Assembly: GCA_030753015.1 (NCBI GenBank)
Contig: JASMDC010000071.1
Location: 1-7,626 of the forward strand
Source of the DNA: Candidatus Undinarchaeales archaeon
GTDB taxonomy: Archaea; SpSt-1190; JASMDC01
Reading direction: 5' to 3'
Length of the DNA: 7,626 nucleotides
Part shown: in pieces, positions 1 through 7,626 of the stretch
Position numbering within the stretch: the first letter of the stretch is position 1
How the letters are laid out: each line of letters starts with the position of its first letter
Position numbers and translations under genes: made by a program
The notes under the pieces: model-generated
Databases searched by the model: none
What the model was told of the DNA's origin: nothing
The model's input: the letters and a program-made list of their open reading frames with translations, nothing else

Positions 1-3000
1 GTAATCGTAGGTGACGTCCGTGCTGTACTCGCCCTCGTGGCGGCAGAACAGGTCGTGCTCGGTCAATGTCTGCGAGCCTGACGTGGGCGAGTTGGACATG
101 GAGTCGATGGTCCAGAAGTGGGTGCCCGTATTGGCCGGATCCTTGAACTGGTAGGAGCAGGCGGTCTGGCCGTTGGGTGAGCCTCCGGAGCGGTAGGTGA
201 GGCCGCACGTCATGTCCTGACTGCTACGGATGATGCCCACGGGAGTGTTGAACGACAGCTTGGCTGTGGCCGTGTAGCCGCAGTAGTACCACATGTTCTC
301 AGTAGGCCCGAGCGGCTGTGCGTTGGAGATCGGGTACACACGATCGCCCTTGTTCCGATTGCTGCCGCACGGGATGTCGGTGAAGAGGTATTCTGTGTAG
401 CCGTAGTACCAGCCTCCTATGGTGCACTCGTTGTAGCCGTAGAAGCACGGTGCGGTGCAGTCGATGCATCCGTACAAGTAGTAGTCGCACGTCATCTCGT
501 TCGCAGGCTCGTCATAGGTGCACGTGTTGGCACCGGAGATGGGGCCGCACATGACCGTGCCGCAGGTCATGGAGTGGGCGTCCACGCGCTGGTTCTCCTG
601 GTTCCAGATCCAGATCTTGGATGCGATACCGGGCATGTCCTTCCAGATGCCTTCGTCACAGAACTCGGGCATGTCGTCGTTGTCCAGGTCCTGGGAGAAC
701 CCATCGTCGTAGCACTTGTCGTTGAACACGCAGTCGGAGTCCTCGTTACAGCAGGCCTTGTCATCGGAGGAGTACACGCACAGGTTCACTCCCGCCTTCT
801 CGCGCGACACGCAGTGGGAAATCCAGTTGTCCGTGTCGTCGCCGCAGCACTTCTTATCATCGCCGCCGATAGCGTGCTCGATGCCGCCGTCGCCCGCCGT
901 CTGGTCGTCGAAGCATGCCAGGTCGCACCAGTAACCGTCCGACTGGTCCCAGTTCACCGTGAAGAGCTTCTCGGTGTACTCCTGGCTGGTGGCGGTAAGG
1001 GCCGACATATCGCCCGGCGAGTTGCCGAACATGGTGCCTGTGTAAGCGAACCGGACCTTGGCGTTGTAGTCACCCTCCTTGCGGCAGTACTTGGCCTTGC
1101 GGGTCTCGACGATATCGGCCGATGGGGTCGGCGGCTTCTTGGGCGTGTACGAGGTGCCCGTGAGGTCGAAGTAGTTGGTACCATCGGGATTGAACTCGTA
1201 CTCGCACACGGTGGTACCGTACGCATACCCGTTGTTACGCTTTGTGAGGCCGCAGCTCATACCTTTGTTATCGATGACCGTTGAGTCGGGATCGAACACC
1301 CACACCGTGGCCGTGGTCGTGTACCCGCAGTGGTAGTAGTTCTGCTCACCGCTCACCAGGTAGCGTGTCGTCTCGTCGAAGGCCGTGGCGCCCAAGTCCC
1401 AACCCGTGTACTTGAAGTCCACGTGACCGCTGTAGTGGCCGCCAATCGTGCACATGTCGTAGCTGTATGAGCAGGAACCCGTACACCAAACACCGCTGGC
1501 CTGGCTGAAGAACGTGCACTCGACCTTGTCGATGCCGTTGTTGTACGCGCAGCTCGTGGTGCCGGACGAAACACCGCAGTCCACCGAAGAGCAGGTCACT
1601 GTATCTTTATTGATCTGGACTTTCTCCAGGTTCTGGATGGTGATCTTGACGGTGACGATTGGCAGGTCACGCCAGGTACCCGAAGCACAGTACTCCTTGT
1701 GGCCATCGGCGTCCACGTCACCCTCCCACTTGTCGTCGTAGCAGATGTTCTTGAACAGACAGTCCGTGTTCTGGTCGCAGCAGGCTCTATCGTCCGTGGA
1801 CACGGTGCAGGCATTGGAGCCCTGCTTCTCCTGTGACGCGCAGTCGGTCTTGTACTCGCTCCCGTCGTCCTGGCAGCAGAGGTGGCGGGTACCGCCCACA
1901 CCGCCGATGTCCCAGTACACGGTCTTGCCGGTGCAGGTAGTTGTACAGTATCGACTGGTGTCCCAGTTCACAGTGTAGAGGGTGTCCCACCCGATAGTCT
2001 GCTCGCTCACATCGGATGGCTTCCCATCGCATTCCTTGTTGAAGTAGAACTTCATCTGGGACTGCCACTGGCCCTCCTCGTCGCAATGTGCCGAATCTAC
2101 CCACTCGGTAGTGCAGGAGGCGTCGAGCTCCTTGTTGTCGTTCTTGGTGCACGAGCCCTTGTGACAGGTCATGAGCTCCCAGTTCTGCCTGATCTTGCCG
2201 CTCTCCTTCACGCGGATACGGTAGAACGCTGGCGAGCAGCGGTAGATGTCGATCGGCCCGTGCCATTCCTCGGGCACAGCGTTCTTGCCGTTGCACGACG
2301 GCGACTCGTAGGTGAACTTGGCCTTGGTCGTGTACATGCCCGCCACCTTGCACAGGGTGTAGTCCTTGGTGGGGCAGCTCTTGGACGAGATCTCGTTAGA
2401 GTTGGAGCAGAAGCCCAGCTGACCGCTGGTGTGGCAGGCGAGGGCACCGCTGTTCCATTCCTTCCCGCCTTTACCATCGTACACGTAATAGTCGATGTGG
2501 ACGGGCGAACCGACGTAGCAGTAGAAGAGCTCGTTGCGTGTGAACTCCTCGGTCGCGGGCATGTTCGCCGAGTAGTCGCACCGCTTGCCCTCGTAGGTGT
2601 ACTTGACGTTGCCCTTGTACCAGCCCTTCTCGTCACAGGTATCTATAGGCTTGGCCGCGGAGCAGGTGAGCAGCCGGTCAGCGGCGTTGTTGCGCCGACG
2701 CGAGCTGATGCCGTTGGTGTCGTGCCAGTTGATCTCCTGCAGGTCTCCGCCGGCGACGCATCCGGTGGTGCAGGTCTTGTCGGCCTGATAGACCTTGCCC
2801 GTCTTCGGGCTGATGACCTTGTAGCGGACCTCGTCGGTGATGACGCAGTTGTACATGTTGGTACGGCTGAACGCCGATGTGCCACCACTTTGCATGGCCG
2901 TACTATCACAGTTGGCACGGTCATGTGTAAGCGTGCCTTCAACAGAGTACCCGCCAGGTGCCAGGCACTCATAGTAGTCGTTCTTGCACTCGTGGGACCG

Positions 3001-6000
3001 CTCCTTTCCGGAAACGCTTGCATCGCAGGTGTACAGGTCGAAGATATCAGAGTTCTCTGCGGGCTGGTCCTTGCACCCTCCGCCCGTGAATTTGGCGAAG
3101 TCCACCCGAGCACGGATCTTACCACCCACAGGGCAACCCTTGTACTTGAAGGGAGTGCATGTGATGGTACGCTTCCCACCAGAGCAGGAGACTGAGCATT
3201 CAATCCAATAGGTGTCGATGATATTGTTGCTCTGGTCGAGTATCTGGAGCTTGACGTTACCATCCCCTTTTGGCGGATCCCCTACGGAACCTGCGCCGGA
3301 CGGACAGGAGGAGGAGCACTCCACGTTATTGATCGTCTGGATCTTGCCCGCGTAATCATGGAAGATGCGGAACTGTGCGTACTCCGGATTCTCCTTCCAC
3401 ACGCCGTTCTCGCACTTCTCCTTGGCATTGTCGCCGTCCACATCGCCGTTCCAACCGTGGTGGTAGCAACCGTTATTGAACACACAGTCGGTCTTGCTGT
3501 CGCAGCAGGCCAGGTCGTCGCCACCACGATCACAAGCCGTGGACACGGCCTCGATGGTCTCGCAGAACCTGTACCACTCGTTATTGTCATCACCACAGCA
3601 CTTGTTGCCGTGGACCTCACCGCCGACGTTCCATGCGATGCCCTTGTCCTTGACACCCGTTGTCTTGTCGTCGAAGCACGACAATGAGCAGAAGGTGCCC
3701 GAGTGCCCGTCCCAGTTGATGTTGTACTCTTTCTTTGTGATGTCCTGGGACGCGTCTTCGAGCTTCATACCGTCCCAGTTGTTGCCTGCGTAGTGGACAC
3801 GGGCCTTGAAGTAGTGGTCACCCTCGCGGTCGCACTGGCGCTTCTGGCCGCTCACGGTTACGTACTTGGTGGGTGTCCAGCCCGAGTATGTGCACTCGAC
3901 GTTCGCGTTGTGGTTCGTCGGGTCCTTGGAGAACTGCTTGGTGGGACAGACCGCCCATTCACCGTTGACATAGTAATGGCCGCCCACATAGTAGTAGATC
4001 TGCATGGTGGTCTTGAGCGAGCAGGAGAAGATCTTCCCACGGTCGATCCAGACCGGATTGGTCCTGAAGTCCTTGTTGTGGCAGTTGCGGCCCGCGTGCT
4101 TGATCTCGCTCCTGAGCGTATAGTAGCCCTTGTTGCTGCTGCACACCGTCGTCTCGGGTATGGTGACCGTCGGGCAATCGCTCTTGAGCTCGTACATGCC
4201 GCCCGGCTTGTGGCAAACGGTGGAGCAGTCCTTGTCGCCAGAGGTCCAGGCCTGGCCGCCCTCGGGCTTGTAGAGGTGATACTCCACGTGGTCAGTGATA
4301 GTGCAGGTGTAGAGGTTGTGCTTGCTGATCACGGAGGTGCCCCCGTCCACCATGGGCATGCCATCGCAGTTACCGCGGTTATGGGTGATGGTGGCCTCGG
4401 CCTGGTAGGTACCGGGGATCAGGCACTCGGTGAAGTCGGTGGGGCAACTATGGGTCCGCTCCTTACCGCCCTCGTCGCAGGTGTAGAGGTCGAAGACCGC
4501 GGAGTTGGCCATGTCGCGCGCGGGGCAGCCGCTCTGCCCACCGTAGGAGGGGAAGTCGATCCGCGCCCGGATCTTGCCGGCCACCGGGCAGGCCGTGTAC
4601 TTGAAGCTCTCGCATGTCCACACTGACTTGTAGCCCGAGCAGGTGAAAGAGCATTTGGGATAGAACGTGTTGATGATGTTGTCGTTCTTGTCCATGATGC
4701 GGAGCTTGACGTCGCCCGCTCCCTGAGGCGGAGTGACGTACCCGGAGGCACCTGGGCAGGCGGAGTCACAGAGCACGTTGTTGATGTTGTAGAGCTTACC
4801 GGCAGCGTTGTGGAAGATGCGTATCTGGGCGTACTCGGGCGAGTCCTGCCACTTCCCGTTCACGCACTTCTCCTTGGCGTAGTCGTTGTCGATATCGCCG
4901 CTCCATCCGCTGGCGTAGCAGTTTCCGTTGAAGACGCAGTCCGTGGACTTGTCGCAGCAGGCCAGGTTATCGGACGAGGCGGCGCACCCGGCACCCGCGT
5001 CCTCCAGCGTCTCGCACGTTCTGATGAACTCGTTGGCGTCGTCCTCACAGCACTTGGCGACGTCGCCGCCGATGTTGTACTTATTGGAGCCGCAGGCGTT
5101 GCAGTAGGTGGCCGACTCGTCCTGGTCACGCCAAGTGCCTGACTTGCAGTACTCACCATTGTAGTCCGCCTCGTTGGAACCAGCGTGGTTGGTCTGGAGG
5201 CAAGTGCCCTGTGAATAGCATGTGTTGCCGTTGGTGCAGTCGTTGTTGTTGTTGCAGCAGGCGTCCGTATTATCGGCGTTGGACACCTTCCGGTACTCAC
5301 CTGCATCGTCACCGCAGCATTTTGCGATCTCGCCGCCGATGTCGTAGTTGCTGTCGCCGTGACAGGCCTTGCAGTAGCTGCTCTTATCGTCCAGATCGAC
5401 CCAGGTGCCGGCCTTGCAGTACTCGCCGCTGGTGGCCGCATTGGAGATCGGGAGCGCGGTGTGTGCGCATTGTCCGTTGGTGACGCACTTGTTGTTGTAT
5501 GAGCAGTCGTTGGTCTTGTCACAGCAGGCGTCCGTCGAGTCGGCGTTGTTGGTGATGCGGAACTCGTTGGCGTCATCGCCGCAGCATTTGGCACGGGAGC
5601 CACCGTCGGAGGTACCGATGGCCCACCAAACGTCCTTGTTCACGCAATTCTTGTGGCAGTAGTCCTTGGTGTCCCAGTTGACGGTGTACTGGGTGCGTGT
5701 GCGGCTTTCCACGTTCTTGTTGCCCGCCATGGCAGTGCCGTCCCAGTTCTTGCCCGTGAATGTGTACTCGACCTTTGTCTTGTAGTCACCCTCGATACGA
5801 CAGTAGTTCTTGTTGCCGCCGACAGTGACGGACTTGCCCGCTTCAGGTGTATATGCACTGTACGTGCATTCGTGGTTGATGCCGCCCTCGACATTGCCGG
5901 GACTCTTAGCGATGACCTGCGGGCAGCTCATGGCCTTGTTATTGATGAAGTAATGGCCGCCTACCCAGAACCACAGCTTGGCATTGAGCACCAGAGAGCA

Positions 6001-7626
6001 CGAGAACACCTTGAGGTTGGTATTGTCCACCCAGCTGTTCGGGAACTTGAGCGCCTTGCCGTCAACGCAGTTGTTGCCCACGTGATTGATGTAAGCGTTG
6101 GTCGTGTAGTATCCGTTGCGGCTGGTGCAGAAGTCGGCCCAGTTGAAGGTATACGTCTGGCAGTTGGCCTCGCGCGAGCCCGAGGAGCACGTTGCGTCGC
6201 ACTCCATCTCTCCGCTGCGTTTCACGTAGGTACCGGTGCTGGGGTTCGTCGTTCCGGGGAGGTAGAAGTAGTACCTGATCTTGTCCTTGATCACGCACTT
6301 GTAGAGGTTGTGTCGTGAGATCTGTGACTTGGAGTTGGTATTGATATTGGTAGCGTCACAGCCCCTGCGCTTGTGGTCGATGGTGGCCTCGGCCTTGTAC
6401 CAGCCGGGGATCTTGCAGTCGTAGTACGTGGTGGAGCACTCATGGGAGCGCTCCTTCCCTCCCTGGGCGCAGGTGTAGAGGTCGTATGGACCGAGGTTGG
6501 TAGGATCACGCTGGGGGCATGCCCCCCCTTTGCTAGCACCTGCAACGATGTCGATCCTTGCCTTGAGCTTACCAGTGACTGGGCAGGCAGTGTACTTGAA
6601 CGGCGTGCACGTCATGGTCGACTTCCCACCCGAGCACGAGAACGAGCACTCGGGAAAGTAGGTGTCAACGATGTTGTTGCTCGCGTCGAGGATGCGGACC
6701 TTCACCAATCCGTCGCCTTCGGGGGGCTCGACGATGCCGGCGCCGGCGGGGCACGAACTGCCGCAGAGAACGTTGTTGATGGTCTTGAGGACGGTGTTGC
6801 CGGTAGCCTCGTGGTAGATGCGGAGCTGGGCGTACTCGGGCGCGTCCTCCCACTCGCCGTTGACGCAGAACTCCGAGGCGCCGTCGCTGTCCACGTCGCC
6901 CATGTGACCATTGTTGTAGCATTTACCATAGCTTATACAGTCCTTCGCGGCACTGCAACACGCCTTGTTGTCGCCGTTGCACGCGTTCTTGATCGCCTCA
7001 TTCGTGACGCACGTGCGGTACCACTCGTTGTTGTCGTCACCACAGCAAGTACCTGCGCTCACCTCGCCGCCGATGTTCCAGGCGAGGCCGCTGTCCAGGG
7101 CCCCTGTGGTCTTGTCGTTGAAGCACGAGGTCGAGCAATAGGTGCCGGAATATCCGTCCCAGGTGACCGTGTAGAGGGTGTTGGAGAGCGTCTGTGATGT
7201 GGCCGCGAGGGCTTTACCGTCCCAGTTCTTGCCGGAGTAGGAGACCGCGACGCTCATTATATGGTTCCCCTCATAGTCGCACTGGCGCTTCTGGCCGCTT
7301 ACGGTGACGTACTTGTTCGGGGTCCAGCCCGTATAGGTGCACGCGATGACCGCGCTGTTGTCGGAGGGATCATGCGAGAACTGGTCGGAAGGACAGCTCA
7401 TCGCCTTGTTGGAGAAGTAGGTATGGCTGCCGCCCTTGTAGGTGACCTTCATAGATGTGTCCAGGCCGCAGGAGAATACCGCTTTGTTGGTATTATCCGC
7501 CCAGCTGGTGGAGAAGCGGAGGGCCTTGCCATCCTTGCACGAGTAGCCCTTGTGCTGTATGCGGGTGTTGACGGTATAGAATCCGCCGCGGTTCGTACAG
7601 ATGGACGCCTCGGGAATATTATAGCT
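1..7626 (-). CDS. Internal fragment of a giant cysteine-rich repeat protein (probable extracellular/surface protein)
   Basis: The frame is open for all 2542 codons, with no in-frame stop and with start and stop both outside the window. I translated it by hand from end to end. The phase is supported by repeats that stay in register throughout: seven CC-x-DD signatures, seven ACC-x5-DC, five NWD/TWD segments and five GDxDxD loops. Cysteine is about 6.5% (32 in the first 490 residues), and Asn, Gly, Asp, Tyr, Lys and Thr are abundant. I see no hydrophobic segment long enough to span a membrane; any signal peptide or cell anchor would lie outside the window. Codons strongly favour C or G at the third base. 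The function is not known to me. The Cys-rich, acidic-loop architecture suggests a secreted, disulfide- and Ca2+-stabilised fibre, adhesin or wall protein. Similar CCGDD modules are, as I recall, found in giant proteins of uncultured archaea. The coding assignment is near certain; the role and taxon are inference. Confidence 0.96.
43..657 (-). repeat. Type B module, copy 2 (205 residues)
   Basis: It matches copy 1: a KIWIWN segment, a Cys cluster (MTC, MC, TC, C-x2-C, C-x3-C), CTIGGWYYG (Cys codon 424-426), WYYCGYTATAKLSF, DMTCGLT, ACSYQF and LFC at the start of an EGEY domain. It lacks the Pro-rich linker of copy 1 and has a Ser/Thr-rich stretch (SMSNSPTSGSQTLT) at the same place. Confidence 0.72.
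658..963 (-). other. CCGDD module 5 (102 residues) with DxDxD loop
   Basis: The order is FTVNWDQSDG, C-x3-CFDD, AIGGDD, CCGDD (first Cys codon 847-849), KACC-x5-C and QDLDNDDMPEFC (658-693). The acidic loop starts with Gln instead of Gly but keeps the D-x-D-x-D spacing. It shares the CFDD-x-T feature with modules 1 and 3. It is followed by the second type B module. Confidence 0.78.
1084..1686 (-). repeat. Type B module, copy 1 (201 residues)
   Basis: It occupies the position after a CC-x-DD module where type A would be expected. The landmarks are a strand-like VTVKITIQN segment, four closely spaced Cys, CTIGGHYSG (Cys codon 1450-1452), YYHCGYTTTATVWVF, GMSCGLT, VCEYEF, a Pro-rich linker and KYC at the start of the next EGDY domain. 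It aligns with copy 2 with nearly equal spacing (79 versus 78 residues from the acidic loop to the TIGG cysteine). I do not recognise a named family. Confidence 0.72.
1123..1146 (-). other. Proline-rich linker TPKKPPTP
   Basis: Eight residues with four Pro and two Lys lie between the first type B module's last strand and the EGDY domain. Such runs usually act as extended spacers. It is absent from the second type B copy. Confidence 0.6.
1687..1977 (-). other. CCQDD module 4 (97 residues) with DxDxDG loop
   Basis: The order is YTVNWDT, C-x3-C, WDIGG, CCQDDGSEY (first Cys codon 1876-1878), RACC-x5-C and GDVDADGHKEYC (1687-1722). It is the short NWDT variant, as in module 2. The Gly of CCGDD is replaced by Gln, which may mean this position is structural and not catalytic. 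It is followed by the first type B module. Confidence 0.78.
2353..2637 (-). repeat. Extra beta-type domain inserted in superunit 3 (95 residues)
   Basis: It begins CDEKGWYKGN and includes KYTYEGKRC, LFYCYV and VHIDYYVYDG. Other type A superunits have three such domains between GGKER-x-H and CC-x-DD; here there are four. Its Cys-to-Cys length (95) equals that of the PGWY/PGTY domains (96 and 94), so it is probably a duplicate of one of them. Confidence 0.65.
2986..3333 (-). repeat. Type A module, copy 3 (116 residues)
   Basis: The landmarks are INNVEC, C-PSGAG, DPPKGDG, VKLQILDQSNNIIDTY, EC-x3-C-SGGK, TCTPFKY, CPVGGK, ARVDF, FDLYTC and SGKERSHEC. A short insertion lies between LYTC and GKER. 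This is the last type A module in the fragment. Confidence 0.78.
3412..3726 (-). other. CCGDD module 3 (105 residues) with DxDxD loop
   Basis: The order is YNINWDGHSG, C-x3-CFDD, NVGGEV, CCGDDNNEW (first Cys codon 3598-3600), LACC-x5-C and GDVDGDNAKEKC (3412-3447). It is close to module 1 over its whole length; the stretch from WDG to NEWYR differs at only a minority of positions. It is followed directly by a type A module. Confidence 0.8.
4444..4785 (-). repeat. Type A module, copy 2 (114 residues)
   Basis: It has the same landmarks as copy 1: INNVLC, C-PGASG, TPPQGAG, VKLRIMDKNDNIINTF, KC-x3-C-SGYK, CPVAGK, ARIDF, FDLYTC and GGKERTHSC. It follows the third cassette of CCGDD module 2, and its length matches the other copies within two residues. 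Confidence 0.78.
5053..5319 (-). repeat. Tandem CCGDD cassette, copy 2 (89 residues)
   Basis: The length is exactly that of the preceding copy (267 bp), and its ten cysteines fall at residues 1, 2, 21, 22, 28, 34, 40, 58, 73 and 76. A one-residue gain before GEYCKSGTW is offset by a one-residue loss before YNIGGDVAK, so the equal lengths hide compensating indels. It is Asn-rich (four Asn after ACC). Confidence 0.85.
5320..5586 (-). repeat. Tandem CCGDD cassette, copy 1 (89 residues)
   Basis: This copy runs from the CC pair to just before the next CC pair. It has ten cysteines at residues 1, 2, 21, 22, 28, 34, 40, 57, 72 and 75 of the unit. It contains NADSTDACC, GEYCKAGTW, YCKAC and YDIGGEIAK. 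Roughly half the residues match the next copy, with scattered synonymous and non-synonymous differences, so the duplication is not very recent. Confidence 0.85.
6436..6780 (-). repeat. Type A module, copy 1 (115 residues)
   Basis: The landmarks in order are INNVLC, C-PAGAG, a PPEGDG turn, VKVRILDASNNIVDTY, EC-x3-C-SGGK, TCTPFKY, CPVTGK, YDLYTC and GGKERSHEC. Alternating hydrophobic residues in the VRIL and ARID segments suggest beta strands. Cysteines come in close pairs (C-x3-C twice). I do not recognise a named family. The variable loop between ARID and YDLYTC contains a GC palindrome and G-tract (see separate entry). Confidence 0.78.
6513..6528. other. 14-bp perfect GC palindrome overlapping a 7-base C/G tract
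   Basis: GGGGGCATGCCCCC at 6513-6526 is its own reverse complement, and the C run extends to 6528, making seven G in the coding strand. It encodes part of the variable K-GGACP loop in type A module 1. The frame continues normally on both sides. Confidence 0.7.
6865..7173 (-). other. CCGDD module 1 (103 residues) with acidic DxDxDG loop
   Basis: The order is YTVTWDG, C-x3-CFND, NIGGEV, CCGDDNNEW (first Cys codon 7045-7047), KACC-x5-C and GDVDSDGASEFC (6865-6900). The acidic loop resembles Ca2+-binding DxDxDG loops such as those of EF-hand-like, dockerin or thrombospondin type 3 repeats; I infer Ca2+ binding from the spacing only. The two adjacent-cysteine pairs are conserved in every copy. 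This is the long (WDG-x-SG) variant, shared with modules 3 and 5. Confidence 0.8.

Follow-up and report, generated by a model that had tools for sequence, protein, structure and literature searches.

How can a protein fragment with 179 Asn and 422 Ser and Thr among its 2,542 residues be devoid of usable N-glycosylation sequons (N-x-S/T with x other than Pro), and what has kept them out? This question is raised by the window, i.e. the whole stretch of 7,626 bp analysed here, which is an entire contig (C86) of the 3.85-Mb draft archaeal genome G000 (a MAG of 117 contigs with 5% contamination). Machine translation gave one open reading frame running throughout the minus strand without a start or a stop; it is the only stop-free frame of the window and both of its ends are open. 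The minus-strand location of the gene and its status as an internal fragment were absent from the first-pass annotation, which had reported from a hand translation that usable sequons are missing. The machine translation agrees, with 0 of about 29 expected, and the single N-P-S match described there was found at the same place (nt 6246-6238).

1..7626, minus strand: internal fragment of a giant Cys-rich repeat protein with 0 usable N-x-S/T (translation, ORF and sequon counts)
6238..6246, minus strand: N-P-S, the lone N-x-S/T triplet, at residue 461, with Pro at x (translation)

Pro at the x position of a sequon is excluded by AglB (PMC8342417). The number of sequons expected by chance, which had been put at about 25-35, was 28.8 on average in 5,000 shuffles of the whole window protein (minimum 10) and 29.3 (minimum 11) when residues were shuffled inside 20-aa blocks. 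Depletion was confined to a single position after Asn, as had been claimed: against an expectation of 29.7, Ser or Thr occurred 22 times at +1 (about 22 had been noted by hand), once at +2, 28 times at +3 and 36 times at +4. The reversed motif S/T-x-N was counted 27 times, and Asp-x-S/T showed no depletion (46 vs 33.9 expected). When residue pairs at lags 1-4 were ranked by depletion in the window, N-x-T came first, Cys-x-Cys second and N-x-S third. The absence of Cys-x-Cys from the minus-strand protein (0 vs 12.2 expected) is probably a structural rule of Cys pairing.

The nearest named relative of the genome, judged by RNA polymerase B, is Candidatus Altiarchaeota CSMAG_2918 (66%), followed by SpSt-1190 (64%, partial), a record labelled Micrarchaeum (63%) and Altiarchaeota DPANNHV_H2.bin.40 (60%). 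The window is best explained as the middle of a giant exported Cys-rich surface protein of an Altiarchaeota-affiliated archaeon. At 3.85 Mb, compared with 0.6-1.1 Mb in nine members of the class, the genome is either unusually large or an inflated MAG.

An initial scan of genome contigs, for which the complete protein served as query, revealed no relative. Three further pieces of the family lie in the same genome:

Contig C117: family frame of 2,836 aa
End of contig C32: N-terminal family piece of 1,019 aa
End of contig C26: C-terminal family piece of 1,315 aa

The repeat regions of the window and these three paralogues together comprise 6,771 aa with 424 Asn and contain 0 usable sequons vs 74.5 expected, while Ser or Thr follows Asn 53 times at +1, 60 times at +3 and 80 times at +4. 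The absence of sequons is therefore stronger than could be seen from the window alone. All eight usable sequons of the family are located in the C-terminal tails, where 6.8 are expected; one of them, at residue 2204 of the C117 protein, falls within the last, divergent CCGDD module. The border between repeats and tails was set with the sequon sites already known; the window count needs no such border.

The end of C32 (L024), the window and the end of C26 (L025) resemble the N-terminus, middle and C-terminus of one broken gene of about 4,900 aa. C32 and C26 run off their contig ends in directions that fit the window between them, and the window is probably to be placed there, plausibly in one gene; an exact overlap of contig ends was not found among the three. 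The tetranucleotide profiles of the window and of the C117 giant match with r 0.90; those of the remaining C117 sequence and of the contig carrying the aglB gene match with r 0.97. The C117 giant adjoins a 322-aa secreted Cys-rich protein (L023:16041-17006, minus strand) which by eye resembles the C-terminal portion of the C26 protein; the same C-terminal cap may be fused at one locus and separate at the other.

The architecture of the protein is best explained as Cys-paired beta repeats of about 90 aa alternating with Cys-rich CCGDD modules. The window contains 18 matches of the D1 repeat type and 15 of the longer D2 type, partly overlapping, and D2 appears to be homologous to D1. The modules and one representative of each repeat type are as follows:

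6844..7140, minus strand: CCGDD module 1, residues 163-261 (HMM D3, E 1.6e-39)
5395..5652, minus strand: CCGDD module 2, residues 659-744 (same profile search)
5125..5391, minus strand: CCGDD module 3, residues 746-834 (same profile search)
4843..5091, minus strand: CCGDD module 4, residues 846-928 (same profile search)
3391..3693, minus strand: CCGDD module 5, residues 1312-1412 (same profile search)
1666..1944, minus strand: CCGDD module 6, residues 1895-1987 (same profile search)
634..930, minus strand: CCGDD module 7, residues 2233-2331 (same profile search)
4009..4296, minus strand: representative Cys-containing beta repeat of the D1 type, about 90 aa (repeat profile, AlphaFold2 model)
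7162..7446, minus strand: representative longer beta repeat of the D2 type, GGSHTYFSNKAMSC...GKNWDG (repeat profile)

The D1 repeat was modelled by AlphaFold2 as an all-beta domain (pLDDT 81.7), for which the best score against known structures was only Z 5.9 and a Foldseek search gave no match at E <= 0.001; an Ig-like beta-sandwich is a candidate fold for it. According to the secondary structure of the model, which is not a measure of exposure, 30 Asn lie in strands, 27 in loops and 2 in helices. AlphaFold2 modelled a D2+D3 unit poorly (pLDDT 56.7), and this model was left unused. PDB sequences and Rfam gave no match, nor did plasmids and phages when searched with one 202-aa unit. The Pfam MYM-type zinc finger zf-FCS (PF06467) scored 26.8 bits (cut-off 22.4), its best stretch being 26 aa that adjoin the first CCGDD module; it was not detected in the paralogues and was judged to be a spurious chance match of Cys residues.

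For a genome-wide control, 1.89 Mb of the 3.85 Mb were sampled, giving 1,178 ORFs. These are uncurated mechanical predictions, for which both the codon score and the hydrophobicity rule were simple. Ranked by sequon depletion, the window is first among them (Poisson P 3.6e-13) and two of its paralogues are second and third. All remaining ORFs summed contain 1,740 sequons, with 1,597 reversed motifs and 1,619 sequons expected. In cytosolic-like ORFs, those without hydrophobic segments, Ser or Thr was found at +2 417 times vs 428.6 expected, and other lags gave similar results. Neither of the two outcomes that the first-pass annotation had regarded as fatal to its reading, many N-x-S/T sites on machine translation or an equal depletion in cytosolic proteins, was thus observed. 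Cys-poor membrane-anchored ORFs are enriched in sequons (141 forward vs 68 reversed) and one exported protein carries 33 vs 8.6 expected; this enrichment suggests that sequons may well be in use in this organism. Dozens of Cys-rich exported giants are encoded in the genome. Further ones with few sequons (O/E 0.14-0.34) are L267:1-4941, L276:1758-9005, L072:4969-8631, L082:13194-19637, L067:8360-16741 and L246:20-4279. A Cys-poor repeat protein of 680 aa (L243:1770-3875, minus strand) also has 0 sequons vs 6.6 expected (10 reversed).

An aglB/stt3 gene, which had been proposed as a check, was sought and one STT3 homologue is present in the genome (E 4.6e-17; a 983-aa frame with the catalytic WWDYG). 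Its product would be expected to use the ordinary sequon; Haloferax is known to have rare N-glycosylation sites of a non-canonical kind (PMC8241124). Both the C32 and the C117 paralogue begin with hydrophobic signal-peptide-like N-termini, and the C-terminus of the C117 protein consists of a membrane anchor and a basic tail. The N-terminus belonging to the window fragment lies outside the contig, and its gene presumably begins with a signal peptide like those of C32 and C117. The idea of selection against N-glycosylation in a protein passing AglB/Stt3 is supported by the STT3 homologue, the two signal peptides, the neutral cytosolic ORFs and the lack of a match among other exported proteins. 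We found no other explanation that accounts for the exact spacing, the direction, the effect on Ser as well as Thr and the confinement to repeat regions of exported proteins.

We consider it probable that a giant exported repeat protein is kept free of N-glycans by selection against sequons, close packing on the cell surface being the preferred reason. The repeat protein would cross the membrane unfolded and meet AglB, which would glycosylate any N-x-S/T in the chain. If N-glycans on the repeat region harm the protein, mutations creating sequons would be purged throughout the divergence of repeats and paralogues. The repeats may assemble on the cell surface into a long fibre or sheet, packed closely both within and between chains, and a glycan anywhere on it would act as a spacer or a block to docking. 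Burial in the monomer alone seems insufficient, since the modelled repeat has Asn in its loops and strands alike and those in loops and turns are clean too. Packing, which had already been suggested in the first-pass annotation as one possible reason for the bareness, stays a reasonable explanation, and a bare surface packing lengthwise is the simplest one left.

Since the protein is repetitive and its Asn sites are not fully independent, the pattern might be a structural accident: Asn would sit where the repeat demands some other residue at +2, and duplication would have multiplied such sites; the missing Cys-x-Cys, probably structural, would be a parallel. However, 409 distinct 7-mer contexts were found among the 424 family Asn, and after collapsing Asn contexts with <=3 mismatches of 8, the non-redundant set (n=283) still contained 0 sequons vs 47.2 expected, with 53 reversed motifs. 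Rows with Asn were also compared with the expectation from the same columns in alignments of D1, D2 and the CCGDD module: Ser or Thr at +2 was found 0 vs 21.7 (z -5.7), 0 vs 23.6 (z -6.1) and 1 vs 9.8 times (z -3.6), tests that are not wholly independent as the D1 and D2 alignments partly overlap. Asp rows showed no effect, and copies of the aligned repeats without the Asn have Ser or Thr at +2 at the expected rate, so the position is not structurally barred. Structural constraint at +2 was ruled out by these column-matched alignments, and the accidental origin is strongly refuted and highly improbable. Chance or composition as the cause was ruled out by the shuffles, the Asp and reversed-motif controls and the non-redundant set. 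A cause acting on DNA, i.e. avoidance of codons or of a nucleotide motif, is barely credible. Nothing specific favours it: in frame +2 of the window the DNA pattern matching a sequon was found 1 time vs 5.4 expected, a weak deficit that does not recur in those other frames whose expectation is large enough to be of use (7 vs 7.0 and 4 vs 4.7). Counts at +1, +3 and +4 are at or close to the norm, the effect concerns Ser as well as Thr, the remaining genes of the genome match their expectation, and the cytosolic depletion that such a cause predicts was looked for and not found.

The folding of Cys-rich domains was the other reason offered in the first-pass annotation. A glycan on the unfolded chain could disturb the pairing of many Cys, and sequons would then be purged for the sake of disulfide folding rather than of final packing. 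Sequon O/E in exported G000 proteins outside the family is 1.28 where Cys is absent within 20 aa and 0.51 where six or more are present, and it drops from 1.6 to 0.6 with rising nearby Cys at the loci of other archaea. Giant Cys-rich exported proteins of the genome outside the family are also depleted, more weakly (60 forward vs 104 reversed), a sign that the family may stand at the far end of a tendency. Within the family, however, neither the distance of Asn from Cys nor the local number of Cys makes a difference: where the nearest Cys is more than 10 residues away, Asn are as clean (0 vs 15.8 expected) as beside a Cys, and those with two Cys within 20 aa gave 0 vs 31.8. Taken together, the other Cys-rich proteins of the genome show no depletion (177 vs 187). 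The CCGDD module was detected in 15 of the 297 archaeal genomes searched, with an STT3 match in 12 of the 14 genomes other than G000; there the modules have 37 sequons vs 31.2 expected, and a single module of genome G104 has 6. The module can thus tolerate sequons, and neither richness in Cys as such nor the presence of the CCGDD module suffices as an explanation. Because distant Asn are equally clean and modules elsewhere have sequons, proximity to Cys is not the reason; the Cys-rich fold is not supported as the specific cause, and the folding explanation is unlikely. A ligand-presenting or adhesive surface, kept bare for binding a partner and not for packing into a fibre, would fit the signal peptide, the C-terminal anchor and the many putative beta-sandwich repeats, a common plan of adhesins. 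A binding face would be local, whereas the whole repeat region is clean in all four pieces, and we regard this reading as very unlikely.

The loss of sequons has parallels and contrasts in known systems. In eukaryotic secretory proteins, sequons are nearly eliminated at buried and interface sites, while exposed sites are enriched in the exported proteome; the ER Hsp70 BiP has lost almost all of its sequons, and reintroduced, efficiently occupied sequons abolish the function of yeast Kar2 (BiP) (Medus et al. 2017, PMC5562741). As in those cases, N-x-S/T is selectively lost where the protein meets the oligosaccharyltransferase. The loss there concerns buried or interface sites or one ER chaperone, whereas in the present archaeal surface family it extends to every site in 6,771 aa, loops included. 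Among archaeal surface polymers, N-glycans likewise govern the lateral association of Halobacterium archaella: they hold the filaments apart, and their truncation leads to clustering (PMC11239922). Those filaments are glycosylated and kept apart; the window protein is apparently kept bare, the opposite state. No report of archaeal selection against sequons was found in open-licence papers, and this is the first archaeal case as far as we found. With 0 of about 47 to 75 expected sequons and internal controls, it is an extreme sequence mark of selection against N-glycosylation. It suggests that AglB of an uncultured lineage acts broadly on the chains that are exported, and it hints at a surface assembly for which bareness is essential. 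Comparing forward with reversed sequon counts is a simple general test for glycan-avoiding proteins in any genome.

Cys-rich giants with homologous CCGDD modules were found in other archaea; unlike the window protein, none has D1 or D2 beta repeats at a significant score. Some of them, chosen after seeing the data, are free or nearly free of sequons: those of G103 (L151:1-5130; 0 vs 13.4 expected, 20 reversed), G021 (L154:5349-8075; 0 vs 11.5, 13 reversed) and G007 (L159:3291-7484; 2 vs 13.3, 15 reversed). An STT3 search of the incomplete G021 assembly gave no match, which, if the absence is real, would count against the selection model. It is conceivable, though rather doubtful, that several uncultured archaeal lineages independently keep a class of giant surface fibres free of glycans amid neighbours that are heavily N-glycosylated, the bareness being functional in bundling or sealing and achieved by purging sequons instead of avoiding the enzyme. 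A giant of the same kind in G001 is rich in sequons (32 vs 19), and the opposite bias is seen in a 3,723-aa Cys-rich CCGDD protein of G104 (L153:3234-14402), which carries 111 sequons vs 39.5 expected.
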